The translations under genes and the position numbers were made by a program. Shown piece by piece: positions 8,392 through 35,279 of a DNA stretch of 45,582 bases. This DNA is from Alphaproteobacteria bacterium. Lineage in GTDB: Bacteria > Pseudomonadota > Alphaproteobacteria > UBA9655. A model generated the notes under the pieces. That model was given only the letters and a program-made list of their open reading frames with translations, was not told where the DNA came from and did no database searches. Location: NCBI GenBank assembly GCA_017992885.1, contig JAGONT010000019.1, positions 1 to 45,582 on the forward strand. Reading direction: 5' to 3'. Each line of letters opens with the position of its first letter. The first letter of the stretch is position 1.

Positions 8392-10769
8392 AGAAATTTA
8401 ATAAGAAATTTTGTTTTTTAAAACGTTTATCGAAGCCTTTGTTCGTAAGTTTTCTTGTTTTTTTCTTTTTAATTTTAACTTCAAGTTTTTGTTTTTCCGC
8501 TCCTTCTCCAAAGGTATGGAATCTTCCTGACTCAAATCCTATTTTTGTGGGCAGAGAAAAGCAACTTCAAATGATTCATTCTTTTTTTGCAAAAAGAGAA
8601 GGGCATCTCCTCGCTCTTACAGGAGGGCCGGGTTTTGGAAAAACTCAAATTGCCAAAAAATACGCGCAAGAATTTTCAAATCATTACGATCTCATTTGGT
8701 GGTTTGATGCTCAGCAAGATCTCCCAAGCCAATATGAAAGGCTAGCTATCGCTTTAAATCAGATCCTCTCTAAAAAAGAAAAAATTATTCCTTCTCAATT
8801 CTCTAAGGAGGTTCTCATTGACTCTGTCAAAAATATACTGAGAATCAAAAACATAAAGTATCTCCTCATATTTGATAATCCACAAACATACACTCAAGTT
8901 CGAAACTTTATTCCTTGCACCCATGACCAGCCTGGGAGACATATTCTCTTAACGTCACGAAATGCAAATATATGGATCAATAAGGTGGAAATTGGCAAGT
9001 TTGAGCGTCAAGAATCTCTTCAATTTCTCCAGAAAACTTTGCCGAACGAAATAAAAGAAGATAAAGTAAAACTAGCAGGAGCTCTTAGTGACTATCCTTT
9101 AGGACTGACGATTGCTGCTGGTTTTATAAAGTCCCATCTCACGACTACCATCGATAAATATCTTTTAATGCATTTAAAAAGAACGCTAAAAAAGGGGGAG
9201 TCCTCTCCAAGTACACTTTTAGACCAATATCCAAGAAGTGCTCTTGCAGCCTTAGAGATCAGTCAAAAGTTTATCGAAGAAGAATCCAAGGATTCGCTAC
9301 AAACCTTACTTTTCATGAGCCTACTGAATAGCAAAGATATTCCTGAGTCCTACATAGAGTTGTGGCTAAAAAATACGAGCAGTTCTTTAACCGCTGATGA
9401 AGCTATAAAACATGTCTATGATCAATCTCTAATTGAGGTCAATAAGACTGCTGCATCTAATTCTCATCAAAAATTAAAGAAAAAAGAAAGAATTCACTAC
9501 CTCTCAATTCATGATTCAATTCATCAGCTTATTAATGAAGGAATACCGATGAAAGAAAAAAAGGAGCTTATAGCAAAAGCAACTGAAGTAATGCTTGAAG
9601 TCTTTTCTGGGTCTGCCGAAGATATGACTAAAAAGATAACGAAGGAACCAATCCACCTCCAACATGCTCAAAAATTATGCGCGAATGCAAGGGAAGTCAA
9701 CTACACGAGCGATGGGCTCCTTCAACTAAAAATATGTATCTTACAATCCATAATGACAGTGTTCAGAGATTTTGATGCGGTTGAGCCTTTGCTTATAGAA
9801 ATTGATGAAGATATTGAAGCAGGCTTGTCTCTTGCCCCTTATTACGAAGCCCTTCTGAAAGTGAACAAAGGCTTTCTTGCCCACAACCAAGCACAACATG
9901 AGCTTGCAATACAATTTATGAATGAAGCGATGCTTATTTTAGCTCCTTATGAACAGTACAAAGAAGAAAAATTGAGAGCTATAACCAACCTTATTCAGTA
10001 CCATGCTATGAGAGGAGAATGGGAAAAAACAGAAGAGCTTATTGAAAGTGGAAATAAATTATGTAAGGATTTGCCCTGTGAGTCTTGCATTTGTTTTTTT
10101 ATTTATGCTTGGGCCTTCACTTTAAATGATCAGGGAAAATTTCAACAAGCTTTAGATGTTCTTAATAAAGCAGATGCTTACCCCATGCTGAGCGTAGAGT
10201 ACCCTCCTATTTACCAGGGAGTTTCTTTACAAAAAATTGAAGCTTTCATAAAGCTTGAAAAACTTGATGAAGCGCGACCCTCTCTGAGAGAGCTTGAAAA
10301 AAAACTCAACGAATTCTATGCAAAGAAAACACCGGTCCTAGCGTATATGCTGATTTTAAAAGGCATGATACTGCTTCGTGATTCAGATAAAAGGCCTAAA
10401 GCTTTTGAGACTATTAAAGAGGCTCTGGAGATATGTAATAAATCTTTTAAAGGTCCCATCAGGCATAGAGCTCAAGGAAAGGCCTATTTAGCTTTGGGAA
10501 AAGCCTTCGCTGCTCAAGGCGATTTTCAAAACGCCCTTGAAGCCTATCGAATGAGCGATAGAATTTATACTGCGGTCCTAAAAAACAAAAAAATAGACGA
10601 CGTGAGCGATCTTTATAAAGATCTAGTTATATTAGGTGCTAAGATGAAGGACGAGGCAATTGTTCACGAATACTTGAAAGCTCATATTCAAACTTTTGGT
10701 CATATACATTCACGAACAAAAGAAATTCTCTTGTTTCTCAACCAAAATGGATTAACCGTCCCCCTTTAA
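8388..10769 (+). CDS. STAND NTPase (NB-ARC type) with N-terminal signal/anchor and C-terminal TPR repeats
   Basis: 793 residues, GTG start in a 4-bp overlap with the kinase-like gene. Residues 17-38 form a hydrophobic stretch after a basic N-terminus, ending in a plausible cleavage site FSA-P. The NTPase follows: VGREKQL (54-60), Walker A GGPGFGKT (79-86), Walker B LLIFDN (159-164), and a GLPL-like YPLGLTIAAG near 236. The C-terminal half is helical repeats of TPR character, for example around GDFQNALEAYRMSDRIY. STAND ATPases are signal-triggered switches used in regulation and antiviral defence. An exported or membrane-tethered one is unusual. It is convergent with, and overlaps by 4 bp, the XRE gene. 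Confidence 0.75.
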   Translation: MKKFNKKFCFLKRLSKPLFVSFLVFFFLILTSSFCFSAPSPKVWNLPDSNPIFVGREKQLQMIHSFFAKREGHLLALTGGPGFGKTQIAKKYAQEFSNHYDLIWWFDAQQDLPSQYERLAIALNQILSKKEKIIPSQFSKEVLIDSVKNILRIKNIKYLLIFDNPQTYTQVRNFIPCTHDQPGRHILLTSRNANIWINKVEIGKFERQESLQFLQKTLPNEIKEDKVKLAGALSDYPLGLTIAAGFIKSHLTTTIDKYLLMHLKRTLKKGESSPSTLLDQYPRSALAALEISQKFIEEESKDSLQTLLFMSLLNSKDIPESYIELWLKNTSSSLTADEAIKHVYDQSLIEVNKTAASNSHQKLKKKERIHYLSIHDSIHQLINEGIPMKEKKELIAKATEVMLEVFSGSAEDMTKKITKEPIHLQHAQKLCANAREVNYTSDGLLQLKICILQSIMTVFRDFDAVEPLLIEIDEDIEAGLSLAPYYEALLKVNKGFLAHNQAQHELAIQFMNEAMLILAPYEQYKEEKLRAITNLIQYHAMRGEWEKTEELIESGNKLCKDLPCESCICFFIYAWAFTLNDQGKFQQALDVLNKADAYPMLSVEYPPIYQGVSLQKIEAFIKLEKLDEARPSLRELEKKLNEFYAKKTPVLAYMLILKGMILLRDSDKRPKAFETIKEALEICNKSFKGPIRHRAQGKAYLALGKAFAAQGDFQNALEAYRMSDRIYTAVLKNKKIDDVSDLYKDLVILGAKMKDEAIVHEYLKAHIQTFGHIHSRTKEILLFLNQNGLTVPL

Positions 10770-11218
10770 TCTGTCGCAAGATCAACCCACCATTCTGCGA
10801 ATTCTTCATCGACTTGACTTGGATCTTTCTGTAAAGAGTGAAGGTAAATCTCTTGGATACAGCTCATAAATTGCTCGATTGTTAATTTGTTTTCTTTATT
10901 TTTTAAGGCGTTATTAACAAAGTTTACAATGTCTAAAAAAAGATTAGGATGATCATATTCACGGCTTAAAAGCTCTTTATTTGATTGCGATAAATCCTCT
11001 TCATAAGAAGCCTCTTGAGGAGTGAGAAGGTCTTTGACACTACATCCTAAGACATCGGCTACGGCCTGCAAGATATCAGCACTGGGTCGTTTTGAGCGTC
11101 CCCTCATAATATTTTGCACTGTATGACGCTTTAACCCTGCCTCTTTTTCAAGTTCTGAAAGAGAAAGGTTCTTAGCTCTCATGCGTGTTGAAATATGTTT
11201 GGCTACGGATGTACTCAT
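10766..11218 (-). CDS. XRE/Cro-family transcriptional regulator
   Basis: 150 residues. The helix-turn-helix spans roughly residues 10-65, with core LSLSELEKEAGLKRHTVQNI and the typical ending LGCSVKDLL. The C-terminal 85 residues are acidic and helical, probably for oligomerisation or ligand sensing. It is divergent from the excisionase-like gene at 11385, sharing a 166-bp control region with TAACGT repeats. The layout is that of a repressor controlling the switch of an integrated element, by analogy with phage and ICE immunity regions. The last codons overlap the STAND gene from the other strand. Confidence 0.8.
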   Translation of the reverse strand: MSTSVAKHISTRMRAKNLSLSELEKEAGLKRHTVQNIMRGRSKRPSADILQAVADVLGCSVKDLLTPQEASYEEDLSQSNKELLSREYDHPNLFLDIVNFVNNALKNKENKLTIEQFMSCIQEIYLHSLQKDPSQVDEEFAEWWVDLATD

Positions 11219-11852: not shown

Positions 11853-12449
11853 ATGCTTAATGTTATTGAACCAAAGGATCATCATTTATATCGGCCTCAA
11901 ATTGACGCGTTATTAAGTTTTTTAAAAATATATCAAGATTTTTCACCCTCATCTGAAATAACAGAAAATGCCATGTTTATTGTTGCTGAAGATGAAAAAC
12001 TTGGTGTCTATGGAGGAGCTATTGTTTATCCACAGAACGTAAGGGCTCTTTATCAGAAACTTGCAAATGCACTTTTAGAGTTCCTTCCAGAGAAAGAACA
12101 AGTTTGGTCTACTTGCATTTGTTTTTGTGCGGATCAAGACGACGGATTTTTAACTCTAGAGACCTTGGAGGTATGTGAGAATTTCTACAGAGATCTTCAT
12201 AAGGCTTTGAGCGAAGTAGGAAAAAAGAAAGGGACGAATTATCTTGCTCTTACTTTACATTCCAAAGATCATCGCAACACCATAACTTATGGGCGCTGGT
12301 CGTATCTTTTAGAAGTAAATCCTTCCGATTCATCTGATTATCGTTTCCATGGTCTTTTAGCTCTTAAGAACAAGACAAACGAAGTTTTTGAGGTCCAAGA
12401 AGAGGATTTTGATTTCGATGATCAAGACGATGCTGATAGGTATGTCTAA
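11853..12449 (+). CDS. Unknown protein, first copy of a duplicated family
   Basis: 198 residues, good site AAGGAG 7 nt before the ATG. It begins MLNVIEPKDHHLYRPQIDAL and has a YGGAI strand in its first third, followed by alternating helix and strand. The layout could suggest an acyltransferase (GNAT)-like fold, but no acetyl-CoA motif is clear. The tail is very acidic (EEDFDFDDQDDADRYV). It is a paralogue of the product of 12996-13739. Its stop overlaps the next start (TAATG). Function unknown; its place just before replication-type genes suggests a maintenance or copy-control role. Confidence 0.7.
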   Translation: MLNVIEPKDHHLYRPQIDALLSFLKIYQDFSPSSEITENAMFIVAEDEKLGVYGGAIVYPQNVRALYQKLANALLEFLPEKEQVWSTCICFCADQDDGFLTLETLEVCENFYRDLHKALSEVGKKKGTNYLALTLHSKDHRNTITYGRWSYLLEVNPSDSSDYRFHGLLALKNKTNEVFEVQEEDFDFDDQDDADRYV

Positions 12450-12985
12450 TGACGCGTGTTCCTCGTCATATGGACAATGCTCTGTCTGTCCCTGAACGCA
12501 TCCCAGAGGACAAGAGCATGCCTGTGGAGAGAGATGAAAATCTCTCTCCATCGTCTGTTTCATGTGAAATTCCTCAAAAGCCACGTCTGTTGCTCCTTCA
12601 AGGAGAGTTGATGGATTTGACGGGTGACTTCTCGAGTTCTTCTATTTTGGGGCAGCTCGTGCACTGGAGCCAAAAGGTAAGGAACTTTGAGCTTTTTGTC
12701 GCAGAAGAGAAAAGAAATGTTCTTCTACCCTATCCTTCTTTTTCCCATGGGTGGTTTGAAAAGTCGCATCAAGAACTCATAGAAGAAACCATGCTCTCTA
12801 TTACTATTTCTAGCCTTCATGAGACTCTCAACTTTCTTATCGAATGTGGATGGGTCCGAACACGTGTTTATCTTCAGGATACAGAAGAGAGAGCGACTCA
12901 ATATCGGGTGAATCTGAGGAGGTTATGTGCTGATCTGCACGCTCAAGGCTATGACCTTCCTGGCTTTTCAACTTATGGGATTTAA
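12449..12985 (+). CDS. Winged-helix replication-type protein, copy 1
   Basis: 178 residues. After about 45 variable residues comes LLLLQGELMDLTGDFSSSSI, then LVHWSQKV, HGWFEKSHQELIEETMLSI and a C-terminal QYRVNLRRLCADL. This is the winged-helix module of phage and plasmid replication initiators. The copies at 13736-14359 and 14356-16248 share these blocks in the same order. This copy has no C-terminal replication domain. It may bind DNA as a regulator or accessory factor. Confidence 0.65.
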   Translation: MTRVPRHMDNALSVPERIPEDKSMPVERDENLSPSSVSCEIPQKPRLLLLQGELMDLTGDFSSSSILGQLVHWSQKVRNFELFVAEEKRNVLLPYPSFSHGWFEKSHQELIEETMLSITISSLHETLNFLIECGWVRTRVYLQDTEERATQYRVNLRRLCADLHAQGYDLPGFSTYGI

Positions 12986-12995
12986 AGGAGATTTT

Positions 12996-13739
12996 ATGCT
13001 TAAGATTATTGAACCGTCTTCTCATGAAAAGTACCAGTCAGAAATTGACGCGTTGATCTCTATTTTTAAACATACTCTTCCTAAAGATTTTAAGTTTTCT
13101 TTAGAAGAGCAGGCAAAAAGTACCTATATCCTTGCCAAAGATGCACATTATGGTACTTACGGAGGCGCTATTCTTTGCAAAAAGCCTTTTTGTGCCTTTG
13201 ATGATCAAATAGGAAGGGTTCTCACTCTTCTTCATTCTCACAGACGAAAAACCTGGTCTGTTCAATTTTGTACGTATTTACCGGACTGTGACAGGCTTTC
13301 ACGTCAAGACAGAGTAAATCTTTTTCGTGAGTTTTATGTGAAACTTTATAAAAAACTCATGGTTTTTGGAAAGCACCATAAAACGAGTTTTTTAGTTGTT
13401 TCCTTAAGTCACGTAGACTATGTCACAACAAATCTTATTCGAGACTGGCCTTATATTTTAGAAGTCTTGCCTGATGGTGATTATTTTCCTTTTTTTCACG
13501 GAATATTAGATATAAGGCCCGGGAATCATGAAGAGATCCTGTCTATAAAATATAGGCCTAATCAAAAGGTTAAGCAGCGTCTCAATGCTGAGATTCAAAT
13601 CAAAGAAGACGATAATTTTCCTCGTTTGGAAACCCATGGAGTTTTAGCCTCTTTTCCACAAAAAAGCTTTTTTGTCGAAGCTCAAGAAAATAATTTTGAT
13701 TCCATTGACGCCAACCAAACTGATAGGTCTGTCCAATGA
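12996..13739 (+). CDS. Unknown protein, second copy of the duplicated family
   Basis: 247 residues, ATG at 12996 after AAAGGAG (12984-12990). An earlier in-frame ATG at 12927 lies inside the previous gene and lacks a site. It opens MLKIIEPSSHEKYQSEIDAL and has YGTYGGAI, matching the product of 11853-12449 in both. It carries about 50 extra residues before a similar acidic tail (NFDSIDANQTDRSVQ). The stop and next start overlap as ATGA. No enzymatic motif recognised. Confidence 0.7.
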   Translation: MLKIIEPSSHEKYQSEIDALISIFKHTLPKDFKFSLEEQAKSTYILAKDAHYGTYGGAILCKKPFCAFDDQIGRVLTLLHSHRRKTWSVQFCTYLPDCDRLSRQDRVNLFREFYVKLYKKLMVFGKHHKTSFLVVSLSHVDYVTTNLIRDWPYILEVLPDGDYFPFFHGILDIRPGNHEEILSIKYRPNQKVKQRLNAEIQIKEDDNFPRLETHGVLASFPQKSFFVEAQENNFDSIDANQTDRSVQ

Positions 13740-14359
13740 CGCATTTCTCTTGTCATATGGACGATGCACTCTGTATTCCCCAGCACCTCTCTGGGGACGA
13801 GGGTAAGACTGGAGATATAAATGAGTTTATCTCTCCCTTTGAAAACATCCCTTGTGCAAAACCTAACCCTAAGTTTGCCATTATTCGTGAAGAATTTGTT
13901 GAATTAACAGGTGATGCGTTGGTTGCGGCTATTCTCAATCAACTCATCTATTGGAGCCAAAGAGTCACGGACTTTAACCTTTATGTGGCAGAAGAGAAAA
14001 ATGCCTCTTCAAAGGGCCAGTCTTCTCTCCAACATGGATGGTTTTGCAAAACAAATCGGGAGCTTATGGAAGAAACCATGCTCCATGTCACTGTTGTCAC
14101 CTTTCGTCGTTACATGAACTGTCTCGTAAAAGAGGGGTGGATCCAGACGCGAATTAATCCTCGGTATAAGTGGAATCGAAACCCTCAATATCGAGTAAAT
14201 CTGAGGAAGTTATGTGCTGATCTTCAAAAGAAGGGCTACAGCTTTCCTGACTATGCCTCCTATGGAAATTCAGAACAAAGCGGTTGTTCAGAATCAAATC
14301 TTAGCGGGTCTAGTGCATCTCTAGAAACAGAAAGCAATTCAAAAGAGAGGTTCCTATGA
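13736..14359 (+). CDS. Winged-helix replication-type protein, copy 2
   Basis: 207 residues. It opens MTHFSCHMDDALCIPQ against MTRVPRHMDNALSVPE in copy 1, then has REEFVELTGDALVAAILNQL, IYWSQRV, HGWFCKTNRELMEETMLHV and QYRVNLRKLCADLQKKGY. The tail is serine-rich. It overlaps both neighbours by 4 bp (ATGA). It is closer to the third copy than to the first in the LIYWSQR and KW.R.PQYRVNL blocks. As with copy 1, there is no replication C-terminal domain. Confidence 0.65.
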   Translation: MTHFSCHMDDALCIPQHLSGDEGKTGDINEFISPFENIPCAKPNPKFAIIREEFVELTGDALVAAILNQLIYWSQRVTDFNLYVAEEKNASSKGQSSLQHGWFCKTNRELMEETMLHVTVVTFRRYMNCLVKEGWIQTRINPRYKWNRNPQYRVNLRKLCADLQKKGYSFPDYASYGNSEQSGCSESNLSGSSASLETESNSKERFL

Positions 14360-16248
14360 AAACATCAGCTTTAAAGCGTATGGACGCTTATGAAGAAGAA
14401 AATGCCCTCTCAAGTCTTTATGGTTGCAATAGCAAAGAGAACCAATCTGGTTGGAAAGATAAGGACGCTTCTCTCTCTCCTCTTTCTTTCAGAGAAAATT
14501 CCTGTAGAAAAACCAAATGTCCAAAGATTGCTGTGGCTCGTGAAGAGTTTGTCGATCTTACCCAAGATCTTCTGATGGCAATGATCTTAAATCAGCTTTT
14601 GTATTGGAGTCAGCGCATTAAAGATTTTGATCTTTTTCTGGAAGAGGAGAAAGCCTTTAACACAGAATATGAAAGACCTGCGCGATATGGTTGGTTTTAT
14701 AAATCAGCCATTGAGCTCTCTGAAGAAACGATGCTCCGTCTGACAAAGGTCACCATACGAAAATACCTCCACTGTCTTATTGAAAATGGCTGGATTTCTG
14801 AGAGGGCTAATCCTCTCAACAAATGGGATAGGACGACACAGTATCGTGTAAACCTGAAGAACTTGCACATTGACCTTCAGAAGCTTGGATGGGATCTCCC
14901 TGGTTTTCCCAGAGATACATTCCCTATACAAAAACTTTCCTTCGAAGGAAATAATCCAAATCTTCCAGAAAACCCGCAGAATTCCCGAGGTTTAGAAAAT
15001 GATACTTCGAGGGAAAGAAAATCGACTCTCGAGGGTAAAACCGATGATACCTCGAGGTTAAGTTTATCGACCTTCGAAGGTCGAGTGGATGACATCTCGA
15101 GGGAAAGAAAATCGACTCTCGAGGGTAAAGCTGATGATACTTCGAGGTTAAGTTTATCGACCTTCGAGGGTCGAATGGATGACACTTCGAGGGAAAGAAA
15201 ATCGACTCTCGAGGGTAAAGCCGATGATACTTCGAGGTTAAGTTTATCGACCTTCGAGGGTCGAATGGATGACACTTCGAGGGAAAGAAAATCGACTCTC
15301 GAGGGTAAAGCCGATGATACCTCGAGGTTAAGTTTATCGACCTTCGAGGGTCGAATGGATGACACTTCGAGGGAAAGAAAATCGACTCTCGAGAGTAAAG
15401 TCGATGACACCTCGAGGTTAAGTTTATCGACTCTCGAGGGTCGAATGGATAACACTTCGAAGGTCGAAAAACTTAACTTCATATACCTAACTGAGACTAC
15501 TACAGAGATTACTAACAGAGAGCACACGCAGAGAACGCGCTCGCGCGAGGATTTCGATAAAAACTTTTTTGAAGAAGTTCTCCGGATTTGGAATACCTGT
15601 ACAAGTCAAGAGGTTCATCTCACAGAAGAGCGGCAACACAGGCTTCATTCCCTCCTTGCACCGTATTTTGAGAACGATCTGGCTCAATGGCAGAGCTTCT
15701 GTGAGCGAGTGGCCTGTTCGTCTTTTCTGATGGGGCAAGGAGCCCGGAAATGGCGCGTCAGTCTGGATTGGATTCTCGTCGAGGAGAACCTTCTGAAAGT
15801 GCTGGAAGGCAATTTCGATGAGGGAGATCTTGCTGATCAAAAAACTGAAAAGGCTTCTGAGGAGGCCAGAAAAAAGGAAATGAACGCCATTCTCGCTTCC
15901 ATCGAGGATCCTGTTTGGAGAGAGTGGTGTGCTCAATTGGATTTTGCTCCTGGATCTCGTGAACCCGTGAGTTTATGGGAGTTGAAAGAAATCTCCCAGG
16001 CCAGGTTTTTAGAAATTGAGGATGATCGACTCGCCTGGATTGGAAGCAAAGATAGCAAAATTCTTTCCCGCATTGAAGGTCTGCGTTTGAAGATTTTGCC
16101 TATTGTCCAAAGAACTTTTTCCAGCGTTCGAAACCTCAGAACTCGCCTAGAGGAGAACGATCCCTCGCTTCAGCCAGCCATACCCCCTCCGCAGAGAATT
16201 ACCACGACTTCACTTCAACACAAAGGAGACACTCATTATGCTCAATAA
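14356..16248 (+). CDS. Large replication-initiator-like protein with internal 30-residue repeats
   Basis: 630 residues. The N-terminal winged-helix module (about 55-190) has REEFVDLTQDLLMAMILNQL, YGWFYKSAIELSEETMLRL and QYRVNLKNLHIDL. Residues about 216-365 are five 30-residue repeats (DDTSRERKSTLEGKA / DDTSRLSLSTFEGRM). The C-terminal domain contains WRVSLDWILVEENLLKVLEG, the pattern seen at the end of phage replication proteins of the O type. This is the best candidate for the element's replication initiator. The start is in an ATGA overlap, and the end overlaps ssb by 11 bp. The repeats are exact in length at DNA level and may be binding sites (see the repeat entry). Confidence 0.7.
   Translation: MKTSALKRMDAYEEENALSSLYGCNSKENQSGWKDKDASLSPLSFRENSCRKTKCPKIAVAREEFVDLTQDLLMAMILNQLLYWSQRIKDFDLFLEEEKAFNTEYERPARYGWFYKSAIELSEETMLRLTKVTIRKYLHCLIENGWISERANPLNKWDRTTQYRVNLKNLHIDLQKLGWDLPGFPRDTFPIQKLSFEGNNPNLPENPQNSRGLENDTSRERKSTLEGKTDDTSRLSLSTFEGRVDDISRERKSTLEGKADDTSRLSLSTFEGRMDDTSRERKSTLEGKADDTSRLSLSTFEGRMDDTSRERKSTLEGKADDTSRLSLSTFEGRMDDTSRERKSTLESKVDDTSRLSLSTLEGRMDNTSKVEKLNFIYLTETTTEITNREHTQRTRSREDFDKNFFEEVLRIWNTCTSQEVHLTEERQHRLHSLLAPYFENDLAQWQSFCERVACSSFLMGQGARKWRVSLDWILVEENLLKVLEGNFDEGDLADQKTEKASEEARKKEMNAILASIEDPVWREWCAQLDFAPGSREPVSLWELKEISQARFLEIEDDRLAWIGSKDSKILSRIEGLRLKILPIVQRTFSSVRNLRTRLEENDPSLQPAIPPPQRITTTSLQHKGDTHYAQ
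15001..15450 (+). repeat. Five tandem 90-bp repeats (ten 45-bp half units) inside the replication-type gene
   Basis: The marker ending ..TCGAGGGAAAGAAAATCGAC recurs with its CGA ending at 15010, 15100, 15190, 15280 and 15370, exactly 90 bp apart. A partial sixth copy starts near 15451. Each unit has two 45-bp halves. Half A carries TCGAGGGAAAGAAAATCGAC and half B carries TCGAGGTTAAGTTTATCGAC, and each ends in (C/T)TCGAGGGT. Half B holds a near-palindrome TCGACCTTCGAGGGTCGA. Because 45 is a multiple of 3, all units stay in frame and the opposite strand is also open. Iteron-like. Confidence 0.9.
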
Positions 16249-16753
16249 GGTCATTCTCAAAGGAAACGTTGGTCGTGCCCCTAAAGTCTTCTTGACCCAA
16301 GAAGGTAAGAAAATTGTGAGCTTCTCTTTAGCCACAAAAATATCCTGGAAAGATAAATCTGGGGAATGGCAGTCAACAACGGATTGGCACCGGGTTACGG
16401 TCTTTCGCAAATCCACAATGAGATGGATTAAAGATCTTTTAAAACAAGGAGATCCGGTTCGTGTGGAAGGTAAGCTTACCTACCAACAATGGACTGATAA
16501 ATACGGCCAGCCTCGTTTCACGCCCCATGTGGTTGTTTCTGGATATGGAGGAAAAGTCGAATCTCTCAAGCTTTTAGGATCAAATCCTCAAGATAACAAA
16601 TTGATCGCTGAAACAGAGCAAGAGGTGACCCCTTCTAACCTCCCTTCTTCTCTTACAGAGGATGAACGACCCTGTCCACCTGTTGAGGTTCCCGATGGGG
16701 ACTTTTCCTCAGTTCAACCCTTTCAAGATACAGGACAATCAACCTATGAATAA
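16238..16753 (+). CDS. ssb: Single-stranded DNA-binding protein
   Basis: 171 residues. The OB-fold signature runs from MLNKVILKGNVGRAPKV through VSFSLAT, TDWHRVTVF and DPVRVEGKLTYQQW. The family's glycine-rich linker is replaced by a shorter polar tail, and the typical DDDIPF end is absent (ends QSTYE). AAAGGAG precedes the ATG. It overlaps the initiator-like gene by 11 bp, so an element-encoded Ssb used in replication or conjugative transfer is likely. The group II intron is inserted 34 bp after its stop. Confidence 0.93.
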   Translation: MLNKVILKGNVGRAPKVFLTQEGKKIVSFSLATKISWKDKSGEWQSTTDWHRVTVFRKSTMRWIKDLLKQGDPVRVEGKLTYQQWTDKYGQPRFTPHVVVSGYGGKVESLKLLGSNPQDNKLIAETEQEVTPSNLPSSLTEDERPCPPVEVPDGDFSSVQPFQDTGQSTYE

Positions 16754-16865: not shown

Positions 16866-18137
16866 TCAGGTGATGACGCCCATGCGACGTAAAGGATAGG
16901 GATGATGAATTTCGGGCTTAGGCAACCAACGATCAATAAGACGAACCATGCGTTCCCAGGTGAGTGTGCTTTTCTTTTGACCTCTACGCTTAAGCGCGTG
17001 ATGCCAATATCTCCCAATCTGAAATCGAAACAAATACAGCGAGTTCTGATTCGTAGGCACTCCAAAATACCGGTTGTACCCTCCAACAACAGACCTCAAC
17101 CACTTCCCAACTTTGGGAATAGGATCGTGCATTCGTTTGCGCAGTTCGACTTTGACTTCTTGCAGCTTCGCTCGCAATCTCTTCTTGTTGGATCTGCGGA
17201 TAACCGCAAACATCCCATTGCTTGCTTTCTTCCCCACAATGTGGGTGAATCCAAGAAAGTTGAAACTTTCCGGCCTTCCCAATCCACGTTTGCTTCTGTT
17301 GTTGATCGCAAATGGACCAAATTCGATCAAACGCGTCTTTTCAGGATGAAGCATCAGAGAGAACTTCTTGAATCTCGCCTGCAACTCAGTCAGAAACTGC
17401 TTGGCAACTCCAAGATTTTGGAATCCAACAACAAAGTCATCAGCCCAGCGTGTGACAATGATGTCTCCGCCTTTGCGCTTCGTTCTCCATTGCTGGATCC
17501 ACAGATCGAAGGCGTAGTGCAGAAAGATGTTCGACAACAGCGGAGAAATCACCCCGCCTTGGATTGTCCCCTCCTCTCTACTGTGCCATGTTCCGTTCTC
17601 CAGAATCCCCGCGTTGAGCCACTTTTTGATCAGCCTCACAACGCGTTTGTCCACTATCCTGTGTTCGATAAACACCCCCAACGGTCTTTGCTTACCGTCA
17701 GCTTTGGGTATGTACGATCTCTTGACTGGCTTTGCTCGGTACGCTCCGCGTTTGACTTTTTGACGGAGGTCTTCCAGGTTTTCTGTCAGCTTCTCCGCAT
17801 ATTGTTCCCACGTGACCCCATCTATCCCTGTCGCCACGTTTCGTTTGAGGCTGTAGAAGGCCTCTTCGAGTATGTCGACCGAATAAATGTGATGCATCAG
17901 AGCCGTGAACTTCTGTTCTTTGTTTTTAACAGCCGCAGCACGTATGCGCTTGAGCGCACTTTGCACCCTCTCCCGGCATTGTATCCGGTGGGTGTTTTGC
18001 TCTTGCAGATTTCCTTTGGCCAGTTGCCTTTTCTCCATCGCCTCCGCTGGCCTCAAGGCCTGTGTAGCCTCTTGACCTTTGTTCAGCAACTTCGTCGATA
18101 CTACGCAACTGTCCGACTTCCCATGTTCGTTCATCAT
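16866..18137 (-). CDS. ltrA: Group II intron reverse transcriptase/maturase with internal deletion
   Basis: 423 residues. The family start MNEHGKSDSCVVSTK and block VATGIDGVTWEQY are present, as are GTIQGGVISPLLSNIFLHY, RWADDFVVGF, NFLGFTHIVGKK, and the maturase part ending NRYFGVPTNQNSLYLFRFQIG. After KQRPLGV the sequence jumps to FIEHRIVDKRVVRLI near plus-strand position 17672. Intact relatives have about 70 more residues here, including YGFRPGRS and the first catalytic Asp. The catalytic box is WADD, not YADD. The polymerase should be inactive, while maturase function may persist. It could depend on another intron's enzyme in trans. Confidence 0.88.
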   Translation of the reverse strand: MMNEHGKSDSCVVSTKLLNKGQEATQALRPAEAMEKRQLAKGNLQEQNTHRIQCRERVQSALKRIRAAAVKNKEQKFTALMHHIYSVDILEEAFYSLKRNVATGIDGVTWEQYAEKLTENLEDLRQKVKRGAYRAKPVKRSYIPKADGKQRPLGVFIEHRIVDKRVVRLIKKWLNAGILENGTWHSREEGTIQGGVISPLLSNIFLHYAFDLWIQQWRTKRKGGDIIVTRWADDFVVGFQNLGVAKQFLTELQARFKKFSLMLHPEKTRLIEFGPFAINNRSKRGLGRPESFNFLGFTHIVGKKASNGMFAVIRRSNKKRLRAKLQEVKVELRKRMHDPIPKVGKWLRSVVGGYNRYFGVPTNQNSLYLFRFQIGRYWHHALKRRGQKKSTLTWERMVRLIDRWLPKPEIHHPYPLRRMGVIT

Positions 18138-18509
18138 TGTATTACGTCCTTAGACTTCCCAATACGTTCCAGCAGCACCATTGCTCTGGAAGAACATAGG
18201 ATCTCCCAGTTCTCGCACGAGTTGTTAGTGCACATGCATGGGGTCTCTGACCCCGTGAGGTCTCTAGAATACTCGCCCTGTCGTATCCTCGAGTGTTGCC
18301 TTCCGCACTTCTCCAGAGCGTCGGCACCTCAGTCCTTCGTAACGAGGCTCAATACCCAGCCTATGCACACCATTATCAACGCTTCACAGACGAACTTGCG
18401 GACGCCTGTGCATGACTCATGTCCAGTGTGGGTGGCTAACCCTTCACTGAGCGGAACTTTCATCCGCAAACTAACTCGCCGGTTTATCCCGGCGCACGGA
18501 GAAATAACG

Positions 18510-18863
18510 ATGAATACGATGAATACCATCAATAAACTAAAAAAACCTTTTAACGATAACTCTGTCTACACAGAGAAAATCAAGGCATTCTGTCTTGTTG
18601 TCATTGCCTTTTTATTGCTTACGCCTGAAGCTTTTGGTGTTGCTGATGCAGGGGATGCTGGATTTAACGCAAGCAGCAACACTGTTGTGGCTATCATCAA
18701 TAATAAGCTTGTTCCCATTACACTGATTGCCGGTTGTCTTGCCAGTGCCGCTCTTGCCTTTATGAAATCATCGCCAGCCCCTTTTGTCATTGCGATCTTG
18801 ACCACCATTAGCTTTGGCTTTGCAAAGGTTTGGATCAATACTACCTATGCCATTTGTGTGTGA
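18510..18863 (+). CDS. traA: Putative F-type pilin precursor TraA
   Basis: 117 residues. A long leader ends in a hydrophobic stretch AFCLVVIAFLLLTPEAFG with a cleavage site near AFG-VADA, followed by a short mature region with two hydrophobic helices (LVPITLIAGCLASAALAFM and FVIAILTTISFGFAKVWI). This is the layout of F-type conjugative pilins. It is first in the tra operon, directly ahead of traL. The SD GGAG is 8 nt before the ATG and abuts the group II intron boundary, so the intron has removed the natural upstream leader and probably the operon promoter context. Identification is by size, topology and position. Confidence 0.65.
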   Translation: MNTMNTINKLKKPFNDNSVYTEKIKAFCLVVIAFLLLTPEAFGVADAGDAGFNASSNTVVAIINNKLVPITLIAGCLASAALAFMKSSPAPFVIAILTTISFGFAKVWINTTYAICV

Positions 18864-18875
18864 AGGAGATTGATC

Positions 18876-19166
18876 ATGGATCGAAATGAGAACTTTCTTT
18901 TGAATCGTTTAGATAAACCTTTACGGTTTTTAGGCATTAACAAGGATGAGGCCCTGGTTGTTGTTATTCCTCTCTTTGGGGGATTGTTCATGGGCTGGAT
19001 TGTTTCAGGCTTTCTTGTGGGGATGGGAGCTCTTTCTCTTGTTCGCACCCTTAAGAAGCAAAATGAAGGCTCTATGCTCATTCATGCGCTCTATTGGCAT
19101 CTTCCCACACCCAAAAAGTCCATGAAGTTGTCTGTGCCTTCTCATATTCGAGAGATGATTGGCTAA
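18876..19166 (+). CDS. traL: Conjugative transfer protein TraL
   Basis: 96 residues, close to F TraL (about 91). It has a basic start NRLDKPLRFLGINKDEA, then two close hydrophobic segments around VVVIPLFGGLFMGWIVSGFL, and a C-terminal ALYWHLP. TraL is a small inner-membrane part of the F-type T4SS core, a VirB3 counterpart. The ATG at 18876 has AAGGAG 7 nt upstream. The stop overlaps the traE start (TAATG). Confidence 0.85.
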   Translation: MDRNENFLLNRLDKPLRFLGINKDEALVVVIPLFGGLFMGWIVSGFLVGMGALSLVRTLKKQNEGSMLIHALYWHLPTPKKSMKLSVPSHIREMIG

Positions 19167-19726
19167 TGAAAGCTGATTTTCTCCATCACAATATCCTTAA
19201 AATCATCTCCCAGCGAAATGCCTGGATAGGAATATCCACCCTCATGGCTATGAGTACTGTTCTTTTAAGCATGGCGATTTTTCTTAAAAATGAGCGCACG
19301 ATTTTGGTTCCTCCTCACATTACGAAAACCCTGTGGGTGGAAGGAGGGACAGTTTCAAAGGAGTACTTAGAAGAAATGGGGATTTATATGTCCAAGCTTC
19401 TGTTGGATCTTTCTCCCACGAGTTTTGTCTATAATCATGGGACGATTTTAAAGTACGCCACCCCTGAGACCTATGGTGTTTTAAAAAAACAACTGATGGG
19501 GGATGGAGAACACTACACAAAGCTTCAGCTCTCAACCCACTTTAAACCCATAGAAGTTAAAGCCGATCCGAGCAAACTCCACGTCAAAGTAAAGGGAACT
19601 CTCACCAGCTATGTGGCAGGCAGAGAGATTCGCTCTTCTTTAGAGATCCTTTCTTTGCAGTTTAGCTTACGGGGGGCAGGGCTTCTTTTAGAAAAAGTAA
19701 CCGGAGGACTCTCTCATGGTGAGTAA
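19166..19726 (+). CDS. traE: Conjugative transfer protein TraE
   Basis: 186 residues, the same size as F TraE. A single N-terminal membrane helix (about 22-38) is followed by a periplasmic domain with ERTILVPPHITKTLWVEGG and VSKEYLEEMGIYMSKLLLDL, both typical of TraE (VirB8-like inner-membrane scaffold). The start is placed at the ATG overlapping the traL stop. An upstream ATG at 19094 lies inside traL. It overlaps traK by 11 bp. Confidence 0.92.
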   Translation: MKADFLHHNILKIISQRNAWIGISTLMAMSTVLLSMAIFLKNERTILVPPHITKTLWVEGGTVSKEYLEEMGIYMSKLLLDLSPTSFVYNHGTILKYATPETYGVLKKQLMGDGEHYTKLQLSTHFKPIEVKADPSKLHVKVKGTLTSYVAGREIRSSLEILSLQFSLRGAGLLLEKVTGGLSHGE

Positions 19727-20456
19727 ATTTTTGATTTTGTTATTAGCAGGAACCACAGCTCATGCAGCCATTGTCCGACCCCTTGATGAGATGAAAGTTA
19801 TTGAGGTGCCCATTTCTCAACAGGGACTTACGCGTCTTAAGGTACAAGATGACCGTATTCTTCATGTTTTTGGTAATGCTGGGGAATATGTTCTGGAGGC
19901 AGATGAAAATCAAGGACAGATCTTTGTTCGTCCCACACCCTTAGAAGGAGCGCCTTCAAAACCCATTAGCCTCACGCTGACAACCGAAGGAGGATATACG
20001 CAAGATCTACGTCTGGTTCCTAAAGATCAAGCCCCTGAAGCGCTTATTCTCAAAACGGATACCACTATTCAACAAGAGATTGAACAGGAAAAGCGCGCCT
20101 CTGCTCCCCTCTTTCGTGAGGAAGTCGAGGGACTGATTTTTGCCTTACAGGGAGAACGTATTCCCTTAGGCTACAAAGAAATGCCCATAAGCTTGACGAC
20201 ACTGAATGAGCCTTACCAAAGGATCAGAGAACTCCAAGGACAAACTTTGCGAGGATTTACCTATCACGTTCAAAACGAAACCCAAGACCATTTAGTGTTA
20301 TCCGAACCGGAGCTTGCAAAAGATTTATTGATCCCTAGAAACATTAGCGGAGGGGGACCCTTCAAACCCCATAGGATCATTGCCCTTTTGATTTCTAAAA
20401 AAACCTTAACCCCCGGAGAAGGAACAGAGATTTATGTCGTGGCACGCGCAAATTAG
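19716..20456 (+). CDS. traK: Conjugative transfer protein TraK
   Basis: 246 residues with a signal peptide MVSKFLILLLAGTTAHA. The mature part contains EVPISQQGLTRLKVQDDRI and the strand-rich secretin-like region typical of TraK, the VirB9 counterpart in the outer-membrane core with TraV and TraB. A GGAGGA site lies inside the traE end, 11 bp overlap. It overlaps traB by 23 bp. Confidence 0.88.
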   Translation: MVSKFLILLLAGTTAHAAIVRPLDEMKVIEVPISQQGLTRLKVQDDRILHVFGNAGEYVLEADENQGQIFVRPTPLEGAPSKPISLTLTTEGGYTQDLRLVPKDQAPEALILKTDTTIQQEIEQEKRASAPLFREEVEGLIFALQGERIPLGYKEMPISLTTLNEPYQRIRELQGQTLRGFTYHVQNETQDHLVLSEPELAKDLLIPRNISGGGPFKPHRIIALLISKKTLTPGEGTEIYVVARAN

Positions 20457-21732
20457 AGAGAAGATGAGAGCCTTCCTTCACCCTGAATCTTCTCGAGGCA
20501 CTCGAAAGCTTCAGGTCTTTTGGCTGGGATGTGGCGGTTTTGTTATCCTTATTGTTGCCTATGGAATGGGAACCTTTTTGTTTGAAAGCGCCTCTCTCCC
20601 TCAACAAGAGGAAGAAGTCAAAGTTACAGCGACTTCTATCGAGACAGCTCCAAAAAAAATAGATCTGGAGACAGCTTTTCGTAATGGCATTGAGAATGAA
20701 CTGAAAGCCCTTTCTGATAAAATAACCGCTATTGAAACACTTTTTCAAGAAGGCGTTAAACGCGGAGAGCTTCCCTCGCAAGCCTCAAACAATGAAGATG
20801 AAAACCAAGACTCCTCTTTAAACTCTTCCTTTTCTAAATCACCCTTTGTGCAGGAACTAGAAACAAAAATCTTGCAGTTAGAACATCAGTTGGATACGCA
20901 AAGAGGGAATCCCCTGCCTCCACAGCCTTTTCCTTCTCAAGGTGGACAAGAACAGGGTGAAGAAAGAAACCTTATTCAGAAAGTTTCCTTGGGCCTTACG
21001 GAAAACGCACACCATAAAGTGCCTAAAACTGTTGAGACAACCATTCCTGCAGGAGCTTTTGCAAAAACCGTTCTTCTTTCAGGTCTTGACGCCTCATCTT
21101 CCATGAGCGCCTCTTCTGACCCTAGACCTATGCTCCTCAGGCTCATTGAGTTTGGAACACTCCCAAGGCGGTTTCAAAGCGATTTGAAGGACTGTCATTG
21201 TACCGCAAGTGCTTATGGAGATCTCTCGTCCGAACGCATTTATGCGCGCTTGGAAAAGCTCACATGTATTGAAAGAAAGACAGGGGAAATCATCGAAACA
21301 CAAGTTGCTGGTTATATTGCAGGACCTGATGGAAAGGCCGGCATTCGAGGAGTCGTGGCTTCCAAGGATGGTCAATTCTTAGCTCGAAGTCTTGTGGGAG
21401 GGGTATTTGCAGGTCTGAGCAATGTCGCTAACCCTCAAAACCATCAAGCTCAAATGAATCCTTTTATGCCGGGAGGCACGCAGCTCTCTCCTCCTAACGT
21501 TGGTGATCTGTTCACGTCTGGCATGGCGTCCGGAGCTTCAACAGCCCTTGACCGTTTGTCTCAATACTACATTGACCAGGCAGAACAACTCCAACCCGTC
21601 ATTCAAGTGGCCGCTGGTCAAGTCGTGGACATTGTCTTTACGGAAGGAACGTTTATTGGCAGCCAAGATGTGAAGGAGAAAATTGAGGAGCAGAGAGACG
21701 TCAGTAACCCATCATCAAGTCATCAGAATTAA
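20434..21732 (+). CDS. traB: Conjugative transfer protein TraB
   Basis: 432 residues. A cytoplasmic N-terminus is followed by a membrane helix (about 29-50), then a coiled-coil and proline-rich linker. The VirB10-like domain follows, with ETTIPAGAFAKTVLLSGLDA, GDLSSERIYARLEKLTC, and KDGQFLARSLVGGVFAGLSN. TraB spans both membranes and links the core to the inner-membrane complex. It ends with VDIVFTEGTFIG, as in other family members. The 23-bp overlap with traK suggests coupled translation. Confidence 0.92.
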   Translation: MSWHAQIREKMRAFLHPESSRGTRKLQVFWLGCGGFVILIVAYGMGTFLFESASLPQQEEEVKVTATSIETAPKKIDLETAFRNGIENELKALSDKITAIETLFQEGVKRGELPSQASNNEDENQDSSLNSSFSKSPFVQELETKILQLEHQLDTQRGNPLPPQPFPSQGGQEQGEERNLIQKVSLGLTENAHHKVPKTVETTIPAGAFAKTVLLSGLDASSSMSASSDPRPMLLRLIEFGTLPRRFQSDLKDCHCTASAYGDLSSERIYARLEKLTCIERKTGEIIETQVAGYIAGPDGKAGIRGVVASKDGQFLARSLVGGVFAGLSNVANPQNHQAQMNPFMPGGTQLSPPNVGDLFTSGMASGASTALDRLSQYYIDQAEQLQPVIQVAAGQVVDIVFTEGTFIGSQDVKEKIEEQRDVSNPSSSHQN

Positions 21733-21746
21733 GAAAGGAAATAAAA

Positions 21747-22076
21747 ATGTTTCAAAATCTAAGAAAAGCACTTAAACGCTCAGTTGCTTCGGGTATTCAT
21801 CTGATCACTGATTACCGATTGTTGATAACCGCAGGGCTCTGCCTAACTGGCTGTATGGGGGTTTATGAAGGAGGATTTGAATGTCCTCCAGGGATTGGGG
21901 TGGGGTGTAAATCGATCTCTGAGGTTAATCAAATGGTGGAGCAAGATGAACTTCCCAAAAAACAAAATGAGCCTCAAACACCCTGCCAACAGTGCAACTC
22001 AAATCCTGACTTTCCACAGAGTCGTTATGAAGACCCCATCATTTGGTATTCTCCTTGGGTTTTGGAGGGCGCCTAG
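21747..22076 (+). CDS. traV: Outer-membrane lipoprotein TraV
   Basis: 109 residues. The lipobox LTGC sits after a hydrophobic stretch (LLITAGLCLTGC, Cys near residue 36). The mature start has FECPPGIGVGCKSISEVN, the TraV hallmark. A CxxC pair (PCQQC) follows. It is clearly shorter than F TraV (about 171), lacking most of the C-terminal region. An AAGGAAAT site precedes the ATG. The stop TAG overlaps the GTG start of traC. Confidence 0.88.
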   Translation: MFQNLRKALKRSVASGIHLITDYRLLITAGLCLTGCMGVYEGGFECPPGIGVGCKSISEVNQMVEQDELPKKQNEPQTPCQQCNSNPDFPQSRYEDPIIWYSPWVLEGA

Positions 22077-24640
22077 TGAAAAATTTTCTTTCTCAAAAGA
22101 TCAATGAAGGAAAACGACCCTTTGGCTCAACGTCTTCAACACTCAAACTGGCGAACGAGTTTCTATTTCCTTATGGCTTGAGTGAGATGCTTCCTTACCG
22201 TAGCTTTGATCCAGAAACCCAGCTTTTTCTCAATCGATCTAGTGTGGGCTTTGTGCTTGAAACTCTGCCTTTAGTGGGATGTGGAGAAGAAATTCCAAGG
22301 CAACTGACAGGGATTTTCCAGCATGCTTTGCCTTTGGGATCAAACTTGCAATGTTTGCTGATTGCCAGTCCTCATATTGGTTCTTGGCTCAAGACATGGG
22401 AAAATGCACGACAAAATCTTTCCTCCTATAACAAGATTTCATTAAAGGAAGGCTCTTTATATGAGATCTCATTAAATGAGTCCTTTAAGGACGAGTCCTT
22501 CAAGGACCGTTCGGATGTTTTGCAAGAACTGGCTAAGGAGCGCTGTGTTGCTTTTAAAAATCATTCAGCTATTAGGACATTCCGCCTTTTGATTTCTTAT
22601 AGTGAACCAAAGACAACCTTTAAATCCTTTGAAGACATGCTAGCTTTGCGAGAGCAATTGGTCACAACCCTAAACGGGTGGGGACTTCCTGTTAAAGTAT
22701 GGCAGGCAGAAGATCTGATATCTGGACTTGATGAGCTTCTCAATCCAACAGAACGGTTGGTTGGAAATCATGAGTCTCTCTGGAATCCTTATGAAAGCCT
22801 GTCGCGGCAAAGTATGTGTCCTGCAACCCGAATCAAGAGTGAGCCCTCTCGCTTAGTCTTTGGAGAAGAAGAACGTGTCCTTCGTCTTTATACAACACGT
22901 CTTTTACCCCGTCTTTGGCAACAAGGTGCCATGGGAATTCTCATTGGAGATCCTTTTGAGGAATTCTTGAGGCTTAATGGGGGATTCTTCCTGTCCTATG
23001 GGGTTCATATCTGTAATGAAAAGACCCTTAAAACCAAGATGCTTGCCAAATGTGGCAACGTAGAAAAACAAGCAGCTAGTCCTATTGCAAAGTATGTACC
23101 CTCCCTCAAGCCAGAAGCAGAAGAGTGGACGTATGTACGAGAAAAGTTTGAAGAGGGGCAACGACTGGTGCGTACCCGTTTTCAGGTAGGATTGTTGACT
23201 TCTCCTGATCAGATGGCACGAGAAGAACAAACCCTTTTTAATCTCTATCGCTCTCAAAGATGGGAGCTTGTTTTGGATAAATATCTGCAACTCCCCTCAT
23301 TCCTCAGCTGCCTTCCCATGACGTGGGGAGAAGGAGCTGTTGAGGATAGTCGGCTCTTTCAGAAGACAAAAACGACTCTCAGTCATGAACCCTCTAACCT
23401 CATGCCCATTCAAGGGGAATGGCAAGGCACCCGATCCCCCGGAATGATGCTGGTGGGCAGGAGGGGACAGATTTTTTACTGGTCGCCCTTTGATAATAAT
23501 GAGGGGAACTACAATACGTGCGTTGTTGGCCGATCAGGTTCTGGCAAATCTGTTTTTATGCAAGAACTCATGACCAGCATGCTAGGAATGGGGGGACGGG
23601 TCTTTGTGCTTGATGTAGGAAGGTCTTTTGAAAAAACGGTCAAGCTTCTCAAAGGAACCTTTGTGGAGTTTTCTACCCACTCTCCTATTTGTATTAATCC
23701 TTTCTCTTCGATTCCACCCAATGATAGTGAAGCAGCCTCAGATGGTTTAGCTATGTTGAAACCCATTCTCTCCCTCATGGCAGCTCCTAAGGAAGGAACG
23801 ACGGATCTAGAAGATGCCTATCTTGAACAAGCTCTTCAAAATGCTTGGGATAAAAAACAAAATACGGCCACCATTACGGATGTCGCCACCTTTCTTTTAA
23901 AACGTTCCGATCCTGTTGCCAAAACCTTAGGAAAAAGGCTTCGTCCCTACACAGATCGGGGAACCTATGGCCGATTCTTTCATGACTCGCAAACCCTCGG
24001 ATTTCCCCAACCCGATCGGGGATCTAGGACAAGCATTGATCTTTCTGGCACATTGGTTGTTGTCGAAATGGAGGAGCTGAAAGAACGAAAAGATCTTCAA
24101 TCCGTCATTGTCCAAATGGTCATCCTTCAAATCACGAACTCCATTTATATGGGAGATCGTAAAACACCCTCCTGCCTCATTTTAGATGAAGCCTGGGACA
24201 TGCTCCGTGGAAAGCAATCAGGCGTCTTTATTGAAACAGCTGCAAGGCGATTAAGAAAGTATTACGGAGGCCTCATTGTCGGAACTCAATCCATCAATGA
24301 CTTTTATGCAACCCCTGGGGCTCAAGCTGCTTTTGATAACTCAGATTGGATGTGTCTCCTTTCTCAAAAGGATGAATCCATTGAAATGCTTAAAAGCTCT
24401 AAACACCTCTCTATGGATCCAAGCATGGAGCGTACACTTCGATCTCTTCATACAGAACAAGGCAAATACGCAGAAATCATGATCAAAGGACCCAAAGGCT
24501 TTGCTGTGGGAAGACTCTTTCTCGATGACTTCTCAAAAGTCCTCTACTCAACAAAAGCAGAAGAATTCACAGCGGTTCAACACCTTGTCAATCAAGGTCT
24601 CAGCTTAAAAGAGGCCATCCAGAAAGTCAGTGGTCAATAA
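22076..24640 (+). CDS. traC: Type-F T4SS ATPase TraC
   Basis: 854 residues with a GTG start. GGAGGG lies 6 nt upstream and the start overlaps the traV stop; the longer reading from 22043 is unlikely. It has Walker A GRSGSGKS near residue 484, Walker B CLILDEAWDML near 699, and RRLRKYYGGLIVGTQSINDF afterwards, all of the VirB4/TraC class that powers pilus assembly. Residues about 121-146 are an odd run of five-residue repeats (SLKEG, SLYEI, SLNES, FKDES, FKDRS) encoded by 15-bp units, not expected in TraC. Confidence 0.94.
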   Translation: MKNFLSQKINEGKRPFGSTSSTLKLANEFLFPYGLSEMLPYRSFDPETQLFLNRSSVGFVLETLPLVGCGEEIPRQLTGIFQHALPLGSNLQCLLIASPHIGSWLKTWENARQNLSSYNKISLKEGSLYEISLNESFKDESFKDRSDVLQELAKERCVAFKNHSAIRTFRLLISYSEPKTTFKSFEDMLALREQLVTTLNGWGLPVKVWQAEDLISGLDELLNPTERLVGNHESLWNPYESLSRQSMCPATRIKSEPSRLVFGEEERVLRLYTTRLLPRLWQQGAMGILIGDPFEEFLRLNGGFFLSYGVHICNEKTLKTKMLAKCGNVEKQAASPIAKYVPSLKPEAEEWTYVREKFEEGQRLVRTRFQVGLLTSPDQMAREEQTLFNLYRSQRWELVLDKYLQLPSFLSCLPMTWGEGAVEDSRLFQKTKTTLSHEPSNLMPIQGEWQGTRSPGMMLVGRRGQIFYWSPFDNNEGNYNTCVVGRSGSGKSVFMQELMTSMLGMGGRVFVLDVGRSFEKTVKLLKGTFVEFSTHSPICINPFSSIPPNDSEAASDGLAMLKPILSLMAAPKEGTTDLEDAYLEQALQNAWDKKQNTATITDVATFLLKRSDPVAKTLGKRLRPYTDRGTYGRFFHDSQTLGFPQPDRGSRTSIDLSGTLVVVEMEELKERKDLQSVIVQMVILQITNSIYMGDRKTPSCLILDEAWDMLRGKQSGVFIETAARRLRKYYGGLIVGTQSINDFYATPGAQAAFDNSDWMCLLSQKDESIEMLKSSKHLSMDPSMERTLRSLHTEQGKYAEIMIKGPKGFAVGRLFLDDFSKVLYSTKAEEFTAVQHLVNQGLSLKEAIQKVSGQ
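22438..22512 (+). repeat. Five tandem 15-bp units inside traC
   Basis: Successive 15-mers are TTCATTAAAGGAAGG, CTCTTTATATGAGAT, CTCATTAAATGAGTC, CTTTAAGGACGAGTC and CTTCAAGGACCGTTC. Several are self-complementary around TTAA or TCAA (CTCATTAAATGAG). They keep the reading frame and encode S-L/F-x-E/D-x pentads. The same motif ends traW (25903-25947). Confidence 0.7.
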
Positions 24641-24659
24641 TCAAAAAAAAGGAAGAGGC

Positions 24660-25954: not shown

Positions 25955-25955
25955 G

Positions 25956-26372: not shown

Positions 26373-26514
26373 CTCTTCCTCCTATCCCAATCATTAAACC
26401 TAAACTTGCGACAGTGAATCCTTTATTGAAGAAACTATTAAAATCGCTTGTATTTTCAGCAAAGCAGGGAGTTGAGAGGATTGAGAATAAAAGAGTAAGG
26501 GAGATTGTTCTCAT
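26245..26514 (-). CDS. Possible antisense gene: small secreted/membrane protein
   Basis: 89 residues on the opposite strand of the tra operon. It opens with a textbook signal peptide MRTISLTLLFSILSTPCFA-EN, followed by two hydrophobic stretches (about 34-50 and 66-86). It covers the tail of the gene at 25956 and the odd N-terminal extension of TraU. The ribosome site is weak (purine-rich AGAGAAAG). Against it stands the ATGA coupling of the plus-strand frames. It may be real, a former insertion, or chance. Confidence 0.35.
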   Translation of the reverse strand: MRTISLTLLFSILSTPCFAENTSDFNSFFNKGFTVASLGLMIGIGGRVIFPNAPNVPPWDFFLWDQIVLFSGLLFAGLGLLNFLLSLCP

Positions 26515-32418: not shown

Positions 32419-32419
32419 G

Positions 32420-35260: not shown

Positions 35261-35279
35261 TGGGAGCATGGAATAGAAT

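Follow-up and report, generated by a model that had tools for sequence, protein, structure and literature searches.

Within a 45,582-nt contig of an alphaproteobacterial genome (the whole contig is referred to below as the window), a tandem repeat lies in the middle of a gene for a likely replication initiator, which raises the question of whether the repeat acts as DNA, as protein or no longer at all. The preliminary description had seen in it five 90-bp repeats of two 45-bp halves each and had read these as a candidate origin inside the initiator gene, as in phage lambda. The array itself was confirmed: TRF reported it at 14999-15460 with a period of 90 bp, 5.1 copies and 95% matches, in an intact gene of 630 codons, and gave an alternative period of 45 bp with 10.3 copies and 70% matches for the same positions. 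Elsewhere in the 45.6-kb window, TRF reported nothing but a trivial 2 x 15-bp repeat. From the place of the array, the repeats of paralogous genes, the covariation of iterons with the protein and a frozen AT-rich box, we propose that the 22/23-bp repeats are the iterons of a theta-type origin of a conjugative element, bound by the initiator in whose own gene they lie. We assign this reading a probability of about 0.88.

The 90-bp units and 45-bp halves hold as periods but not as the binding unit. The true unit is a palindromic iteron of ~22.5 bp with a TCGA centre, 21 of which stand in register from 15007 to 15457 with a spacing of alternately 22 and 23 bp; strict core sites are concentrated in the same region, with 21 of the 25 in the window falling within 14930-15480. 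Owing to this spacing, adjacent iterons fall in different reading frames, and the frame is regained only after a pair of iterons, 45 bp or 15 codons. The 90-bp repeat is a recent expansion unit, later than the 22.5-bp iteron. Its copies differ from one another at 1-9 positions that are spread over all codon positions, so that their near-identity shows only recent expansion; of the two causes first suggested for near-identity at silent sites, selection or recent expansion, the second was borne out and the first was not. Synonymous nulls were generated by keeping the protein sequence fixed and permuting synonymous codons, and periodic self-similarity was scored. At the out-of-frame shift of 22 bp, the window gave 44/84 matches versus 36.3 +/- 1.7 in the shuffles (p <= 0.003), and the out-of-frame likeness of the iterons thus goes beyond the level dictated by the protein. 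An antisense ORF of 216 aa (14877-15527, minus strand) owes its existence to the repeat, several frames of which are open.

The array lies wholly within the 14356-16248 ORF and encodes exactly the stretch between the N- and C-terminal domains of the protein (Table 1). Residues 59-184 matched the winged-helix family phrog_22444 (3.9e-16), and an AlphaFold model of the N-terminus was a winged helix (pLDDT 88.5) with the recognition helix TKVTIRKYLHCLIE. Structural neighbours of this model (VIA-align) included the N-terminal domain of DnaD (2v79, Z 7.8) and the RepA_N initiators 4pql (7.4) and 4pt7 (7.2), with generic winged helices scoring equally high. Residues 384-511 matched the replication initiation families phrog_19658 ('replication initiation protein', 1.4e-16) and phrog_345 ('O-like', 3.1e-14) as well as phrog_10469 ('DnaD-like helicase loader', 3.4e-15), and the relation to O-like initiators, as seen in the first two of these matches, is confined to this C-terminal part. 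A profile search did not detect DnaA_N (PF11638) in the C-terminus of the window protein; in the relative G028_C87, DnaA_N was found at the same C-terminal position (2.1e-17). The C-terminal model (pTM 0.44) matched no solved fold in a fold search, and a PDB sequence search with the N- and C-terminal profiles returned no real relative. PF06970 (RepA_N) gave no match to the window protein up to E = 1 and was absent among the matches listed for 24 N-termini and four Bacillota relatives, the positive control pBS32 RepN scoring 7.7e-14. Judged by these sequence comparisons, the winged-helix family is distinct from RepA_N and is marked by TCGA iterons and the box. We found no description of this initiator family in the open-licence literature, and its members appear to be annotated as nothing more specific than hypothetical, HTH or DnaD-like proteins.

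Table 1. Features of the initiator gene and its surroundings, with positions in the window
Feature	Position	Strand	Basis
HTH repressor-like gene, same place in sibling elements	10766-11218	-	PF13443 1.1e-12, synteny
Stand-alone winged-helix paralogue without linker or C-terminus	12449-12985	+	PHROGs, alignment
Second stand-alone winged-helix paralogue (WH2) without array or C-terminus	13736-14359	+	phrog_22444 5.3e-22, alignment
Replication initiator gene, 630 codons, intact: N-terminal winged helix, repeat-encoded linker, C-terminal O-like domain	14356-16248	+	ORF, PHROGs
Winged-helix DNA-binding domain (predicted)	14503-14940	+	Alignment, AlphaFold model, structural neighbours
Recognition helix TKVTIRKYLHCLIE, residues covarying with iterons	14743-14784	+	Model helix 82-94, Mantel tests
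Two weaker iteron-like sites, centres near 14942 and 14985	14938-14998	+	Core register
Main iteron array, 21 TCGA-centred palindromic iterons, five 90-bp expansion units	14999-15460	+	TRF, core register, synonymous shuffles
Least stable 50 bp of the initiator gene, candidate DNA unwinding element	15466-15515	+	Nearest-neighbour energies
Conserved AT-rich box ACTGAGACTACTACAGAGATTACTAACAGAGAGCACACGCAGAGA with ~12-bp CAGAGA repeats	15490-15534	+	Alignment, codon identity, frame comparison
C-terminal region, O-like domain and helical tail; the AT box extends into it	15517-16245	+	Alignment, PHROGs; DnaA_N in the relative G028_C87 at the corresponding place
GC-rich flank of the box, ACGCGCTCGCGCGAGG	15535-15550	+	Sequence; GC content 0.60 downstream of the box
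SSB gene, overlaps the end of the initiator gene	16238-16753	+	PF00436 2.3e-26
Group II intron with reverse-transcriptase ORF, between ssb and tra cluster	16866-18460	-	RF02005 at 18241-18460
F-type conjugation (tra) gene cluster, downstream of ssb	18540-37196	+	Synteny by tblastn with sibling elements and with the tra genes annotated on Ac37b plasmid 1

Around the initiator gene, the stand-alone winged-helix paralogues might serve at the iterons as repressors or decoys. A duplicated gene pair (11853-12449 and 12927-13739) alternates with the winged-helix genes and is kept in sibling elements; it had no convincing match in Pfam, PHROG or NCBIfam. An NB-ARC/TPR gene and a sensor-like gene upstream of it (6793-10769) adjoin the initiator module in several sibling elements, and the NB-ARC/TPR gene is also present on Ac37b plasmid 1. 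A reverse transcriptase related to that of the window intron lies within the tra cluster of G013_C5. The TraD/VirD4-like coupling protein encoded at 35280-37196 is the only full copy in the genome, and its best plasmid matches were of the rhodobacteral VirD4 type (~41% identity). The 2.4-Mb genome carries five F-type tra clusters, on contigs C44, C64, C3, C12 and the window (C73), each with an initiator and an ssb gene of its own at its head; of these clusters, that on C3 is the most divergent (27-61% identity).

Such an origin might also have outlived its use, as a relic in a fixed chromosomal island that is replicated passively and whose iterons no longer serve. The window is a MAG contig and as such may stem from either a chromosome or a plasmid; terminal overlaps indicating a circular contig were found for none of C73, C44, C64 and C3. 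The preliminary description had also envisaged an integrated element that could replicate autonomously after excision; the window, however, had no PF00589 integrase match and no flanking 18-bp direct repeats (shared 18-mers) as att candidates, the genome had no TrwC relaxase, and its one match to the PF03432 relaxase, on another contig, was marginal. The element was not classed as a self-transmissible integrative conjugative element, for which relaxase, integrase and att repeats are the criteria. The missing integrase, att repeats and TrwC relaxase, together with MsrA/MsrB-like and transporter-like genes on the flanks of the tra cluster, would suit a relic; on the other hand, the initiator, ssb and tra genes are all open, the array looks freshly homogenised, and both the box and the recognition helix fit the family, so we consider a relic unlikely.

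Five further full initiators were found in the window's own genome (G000), on contigs C44, C64 and C3 and two on C12, and the C-terminal part was present in 18/59 relative genomes, mostly of the same genus. TCGA-centred repeats with a period of 21 or 22/23 bp were present at this same position in the five paralogues and in at least 20 relatives, the flanks differing from element to element; among relatives, the result covers those with an intact linker. The preliminary description had named absence of the repeats from close relatives as the outcome that would speak against it; the relatives with intact genes do carry them, and at the same place. The spacing is 21 bp in most and alternates between 22 and 23 bp in the window, C64, G012_C44 and G001_C18. 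The peptides encoded by the arrays are unrelated between relatives (e.g. DDTSRERKSTLEGKA, NVRNLHS and ETSKFHF) while the TCGA palindrome and the spacing persist, and it is therefore the DNA pattern, not the protein, that is conserved. Each sibling array shows no more than about 3-7 clear sites, versus 21 in the window. Periodic self-similarity exceeded the synonymous null in 22/27 alphaproteobacterial genes (p <= 0.013) and in 6/8 Bacillota plasmid genes; the other five of the 27 were not above it, and the arrays are degenerate in C12a, G014_C12 and G001_C18. Among 289 genomes sampled from the class, the winged-helix family was restricted to the window's own genus, which is consistent with acquisition from elsewhere.

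We then compared the recognition helices with the iteron half-sites. The helix SHPT was paired with GAATGTAA, SKTT with GAAGA(C/T)AA, S[RK]ST with GA(A/C)GTTTC, DRTT with GAA.GGGC and SPPS(V) with GAAGCAAA, and [ST]KVT was paired mostly with GA(A/G)GG.AA at a spacing of 22/23 bp. In 24 genes, the half-site correlated with the recognition helix (Mantel r 0.68, p 0.0001), and the correlation persisted when the C-terminus and the remainder of the winged helix were controlled for (partial Mantel r 0.52, p 0.0003); as these permutations remove shared ancestry incompletely, iteron binding is what we infer from the correlation. The C-terminus was not significantly correlated with the half-site given the helix in the same 24 genes (Mantel 0.15, p 0.11). 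Modules have also been exchanged: the window shares 75% of the C-terminus and 55% of the winged helix with G013_C10, and 71% of the winged helix and 61% of the C-terminus with G012_C44, which has the same iteron type. Given the covariation and the exchanged modules, the iterons are probably bound by the initiator's own N-terminus. As to co-residence, the six initiators of G000 all differ in iteron class, yet G013, G003 and G008 each carry a pair of the same class, so class avoidance by co-resident elements stands as an observation rather than a result.

In the family genes, an AT-rich ACAGAGANTAC box is located mostly 25-31 nt downstream of the last iteron centre. In most of them it has the form ACAGAGANTACNNCAGAGANTACAAACAGAGAGCACACGCAGAGA, in which AT-rich CAGAGA repeats of ~12 bp are followed by GC-rich DNA. 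In the box, 87% of the pairs of codons for the same amino acid were identical, versus 49% in both domains; 14-codon windows outside the box had a codon identity of 0.495 +/- 0.069 with a maximum of 0.771. The box is read in three frames, as PEITTEIT in most genes, as YQRL in Alicyclobacillus and L172 and as NTRDY/NRDY in L162 and C12b, which is hard to explain except by a function of the DNA. Exact DnaA boxes (TTWTNCACA) were found at 12026, 13652 and 13853, and none within the iteron array or the AT box.

The box also bears on the possibility that the initiator binds the array for copy-number control, incompatibility or partition, by titration, handcuffing or in a parS-like manner, with the origin elsewhere in the element. 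The 21 iterons are far above the four of oriLambda (PMC7466680), and by the measure of the sibling arrays with their ~3-7 clear sites, most of the window copies may be surplus; however, titration or partition would not need a frozen AT box at a near-fixed distance from the last iteron, and this box coincides in part with the 50-bp stretch of lowest stability in the window gene (15466-15515), which makes a purely regulatory array quite improbable. Protein-level selection for a flexible or binding linker, expanded by slippage and with the DNA likeness as a by-product, would agree with repeats that are in frame as a whole and with 90-bp copies almost identical, as after recent slippage, but is very hard to credit where peptides differ wholly between relatives as palindrome and spacing persist, adjacent iterons lie in different frames, periodicity exceeds the synonymous nulls and the AT box is translated in three different frames.

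In the preferred reading of an in-gene, theta-type origin, the N-terminal winged helix would bind the palindromic iterons, as the covariation suggests. The filled array would then strain the adjoining AT-rich box of CAGAGA repeats and cause it to melt, in keeping with the position of the box, its low stability and its conservation at the DNA level. The C-terminal region, O-like or similar to DnaA domain I, may recruit the host DnaB helicase, to judge from its homology to O-like families and the fusion in G028_C87, and SSB from the gene next door would coat the single strand. The linker encoded by the array would serve as a tether only. More speculatively, the surplus among the 21 iterons may also titrate the initiator and lower the copy number.

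Genes on Bacillota plasmids and phage contigs, including those of Alicyclobacillus pAACI01 (WP_012812155.1), B. subtilis pNIB353_1 (WP_231834318.1) and the IMG/VR loci L158-L191, encode the same winged helix as the window gene (46% identity, hhalign 100%) and likewise contain the box, here ATACCAGAGANTAC, and 21-bp iterons, which in many are centred on TTCG. They differ in the C-terminus in most cases (L169 has the shared O-like one) and in their hosts, which belong to another phylum. The box ATACCAGAGATTACTACAGAGATTAC (ATACCAGAGANTAC) after the array was detected against synonymous shuffles in 21/32 of these genes at p <= 0.05 (Fisher p 1.6e-17). Complete circular plasmids that combine winged helix, 21-bp iterons and box were found in Alicyclobacillus, B. 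subtilis and Peribacillus; a Vagococcus plasmid carries the same winged helix with a related repeat. GenBank phage records gave no tblastn match, unlike the IMG/VR contigs.

The lambda origin lies in the middle of gene O, with four iterons beside an AT-rich region (PMC7466680, PMC6022878). The window gene is similar in its mid-gene iterons between domains, its adjoining AT-rich region and the match of its C-terminus to phrog_345 (3.1e-14), and differs in having 21 iterons rather than four, the phrog_22444 winged helix, the TCGA core and the CAGAGA box. Lambda O combines N-terminal DNA binding with C-terminal helicase recruitment, and the same arrangement is proposed here on sequence grounds. 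The earlier comparison with lambda is supported by the covariation, the frozen AT box and the recurrence of the layout on circular plasmids. The origin of repABC plasmids lies within repC and is AT-rich and without iterons (PMC3155836), in contrast to the window gene with its iterons. Among alphaproteobacterial elements, the circular, 47-kb plasmid 1 of Rickettsiales bacterium Ac37b (CP009218) has the gene order of the window, namely NB-ARC/TPR, a repressor-like gene, small winged-helix genes, the gene for the C-terminal initiator domain and TraL/E/K/B/C/W/U, but its initiator domains are split over two genes, with another winged helix. The Ac37b and pBealeia1 genes have only the C-terminal domain in common with the window gene, and no tandem iteron array was found in them. 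The DnaA_N proteins DALP, of Rickettsia plasmids, and those of the Orientia RAGE (PMC4316617, PMC10732058) recall G028_C87 in that a C-terminus of the DnaA_N type is encoded by a plasmid or an F-type conjugative element, in their case of alphaproteobacterial endosymbionts; they differ from the window, whose protein has no detectable DnaA_N, and we found no in-gene iterons described for DALP or RAGE.

In-gene origins were already known from lambda and RepA_N plasmids; the winged-helix family seen here is a separate one, carried by elements of two phyla. It offers a natural set of origins with matching recognition helices, in which origin specificity and plasmid compatibility are directly testable and partly predictable from sequence, and its conserved box is a sequence-defined candidate unwinding element; the F-type conjugative elements of uncultured alphaproteobacteria gain a likely replicon. 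A broader proposal, for which we see even odds, is that winged helix, iteron array and ACAGAGANTAC box form a portable origin cassette common to Bacillota plasmids and phages and to alphaproteobacterial conjugative elements, with the C-terminus swapped to suit the host. The helix/iteron code would then make co-resident origins orthogonal, so that several F-type elements fit into one small genome, and the box would be a sequence-specific strand-opening element, beyond mere AT-richness.

RepA_N plasmids combine a winged-helix N-terminus, central boxes and a swappable C-terminus (pSK41 Rep, PMC5703833; pLS32/pBS32 RepN, PMC4490491, PMC3155836), and the window gene is like them in layout, with no relation in sequence. 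The N-terminus of pSK41 Rep binds boxes located centrally in rep, its linker is dispensable and its C-terminus is genus-specific (PMC5703833); the origins of pLS32, pAD1, pSK1 and others likewise lie inside the rep gene (PMC3155836). The same layout was seen for pBS32 RepN in our analysis, but RepN was rejected as a homologue (hhalign probability 0.6%), the layout alone being in common, and membership of the pPR9 hybrid Rep in the winged-helix family was not supported either (3%). On the Vagococcus plasmid (L069, 2959-4092), the winged helix of the family is joined to a C-terminus that ends like that of pBS32 RepN (YNWLD motif, a weak match with E 0.001), which suggests that C-termini have been exchanged between initiator families.
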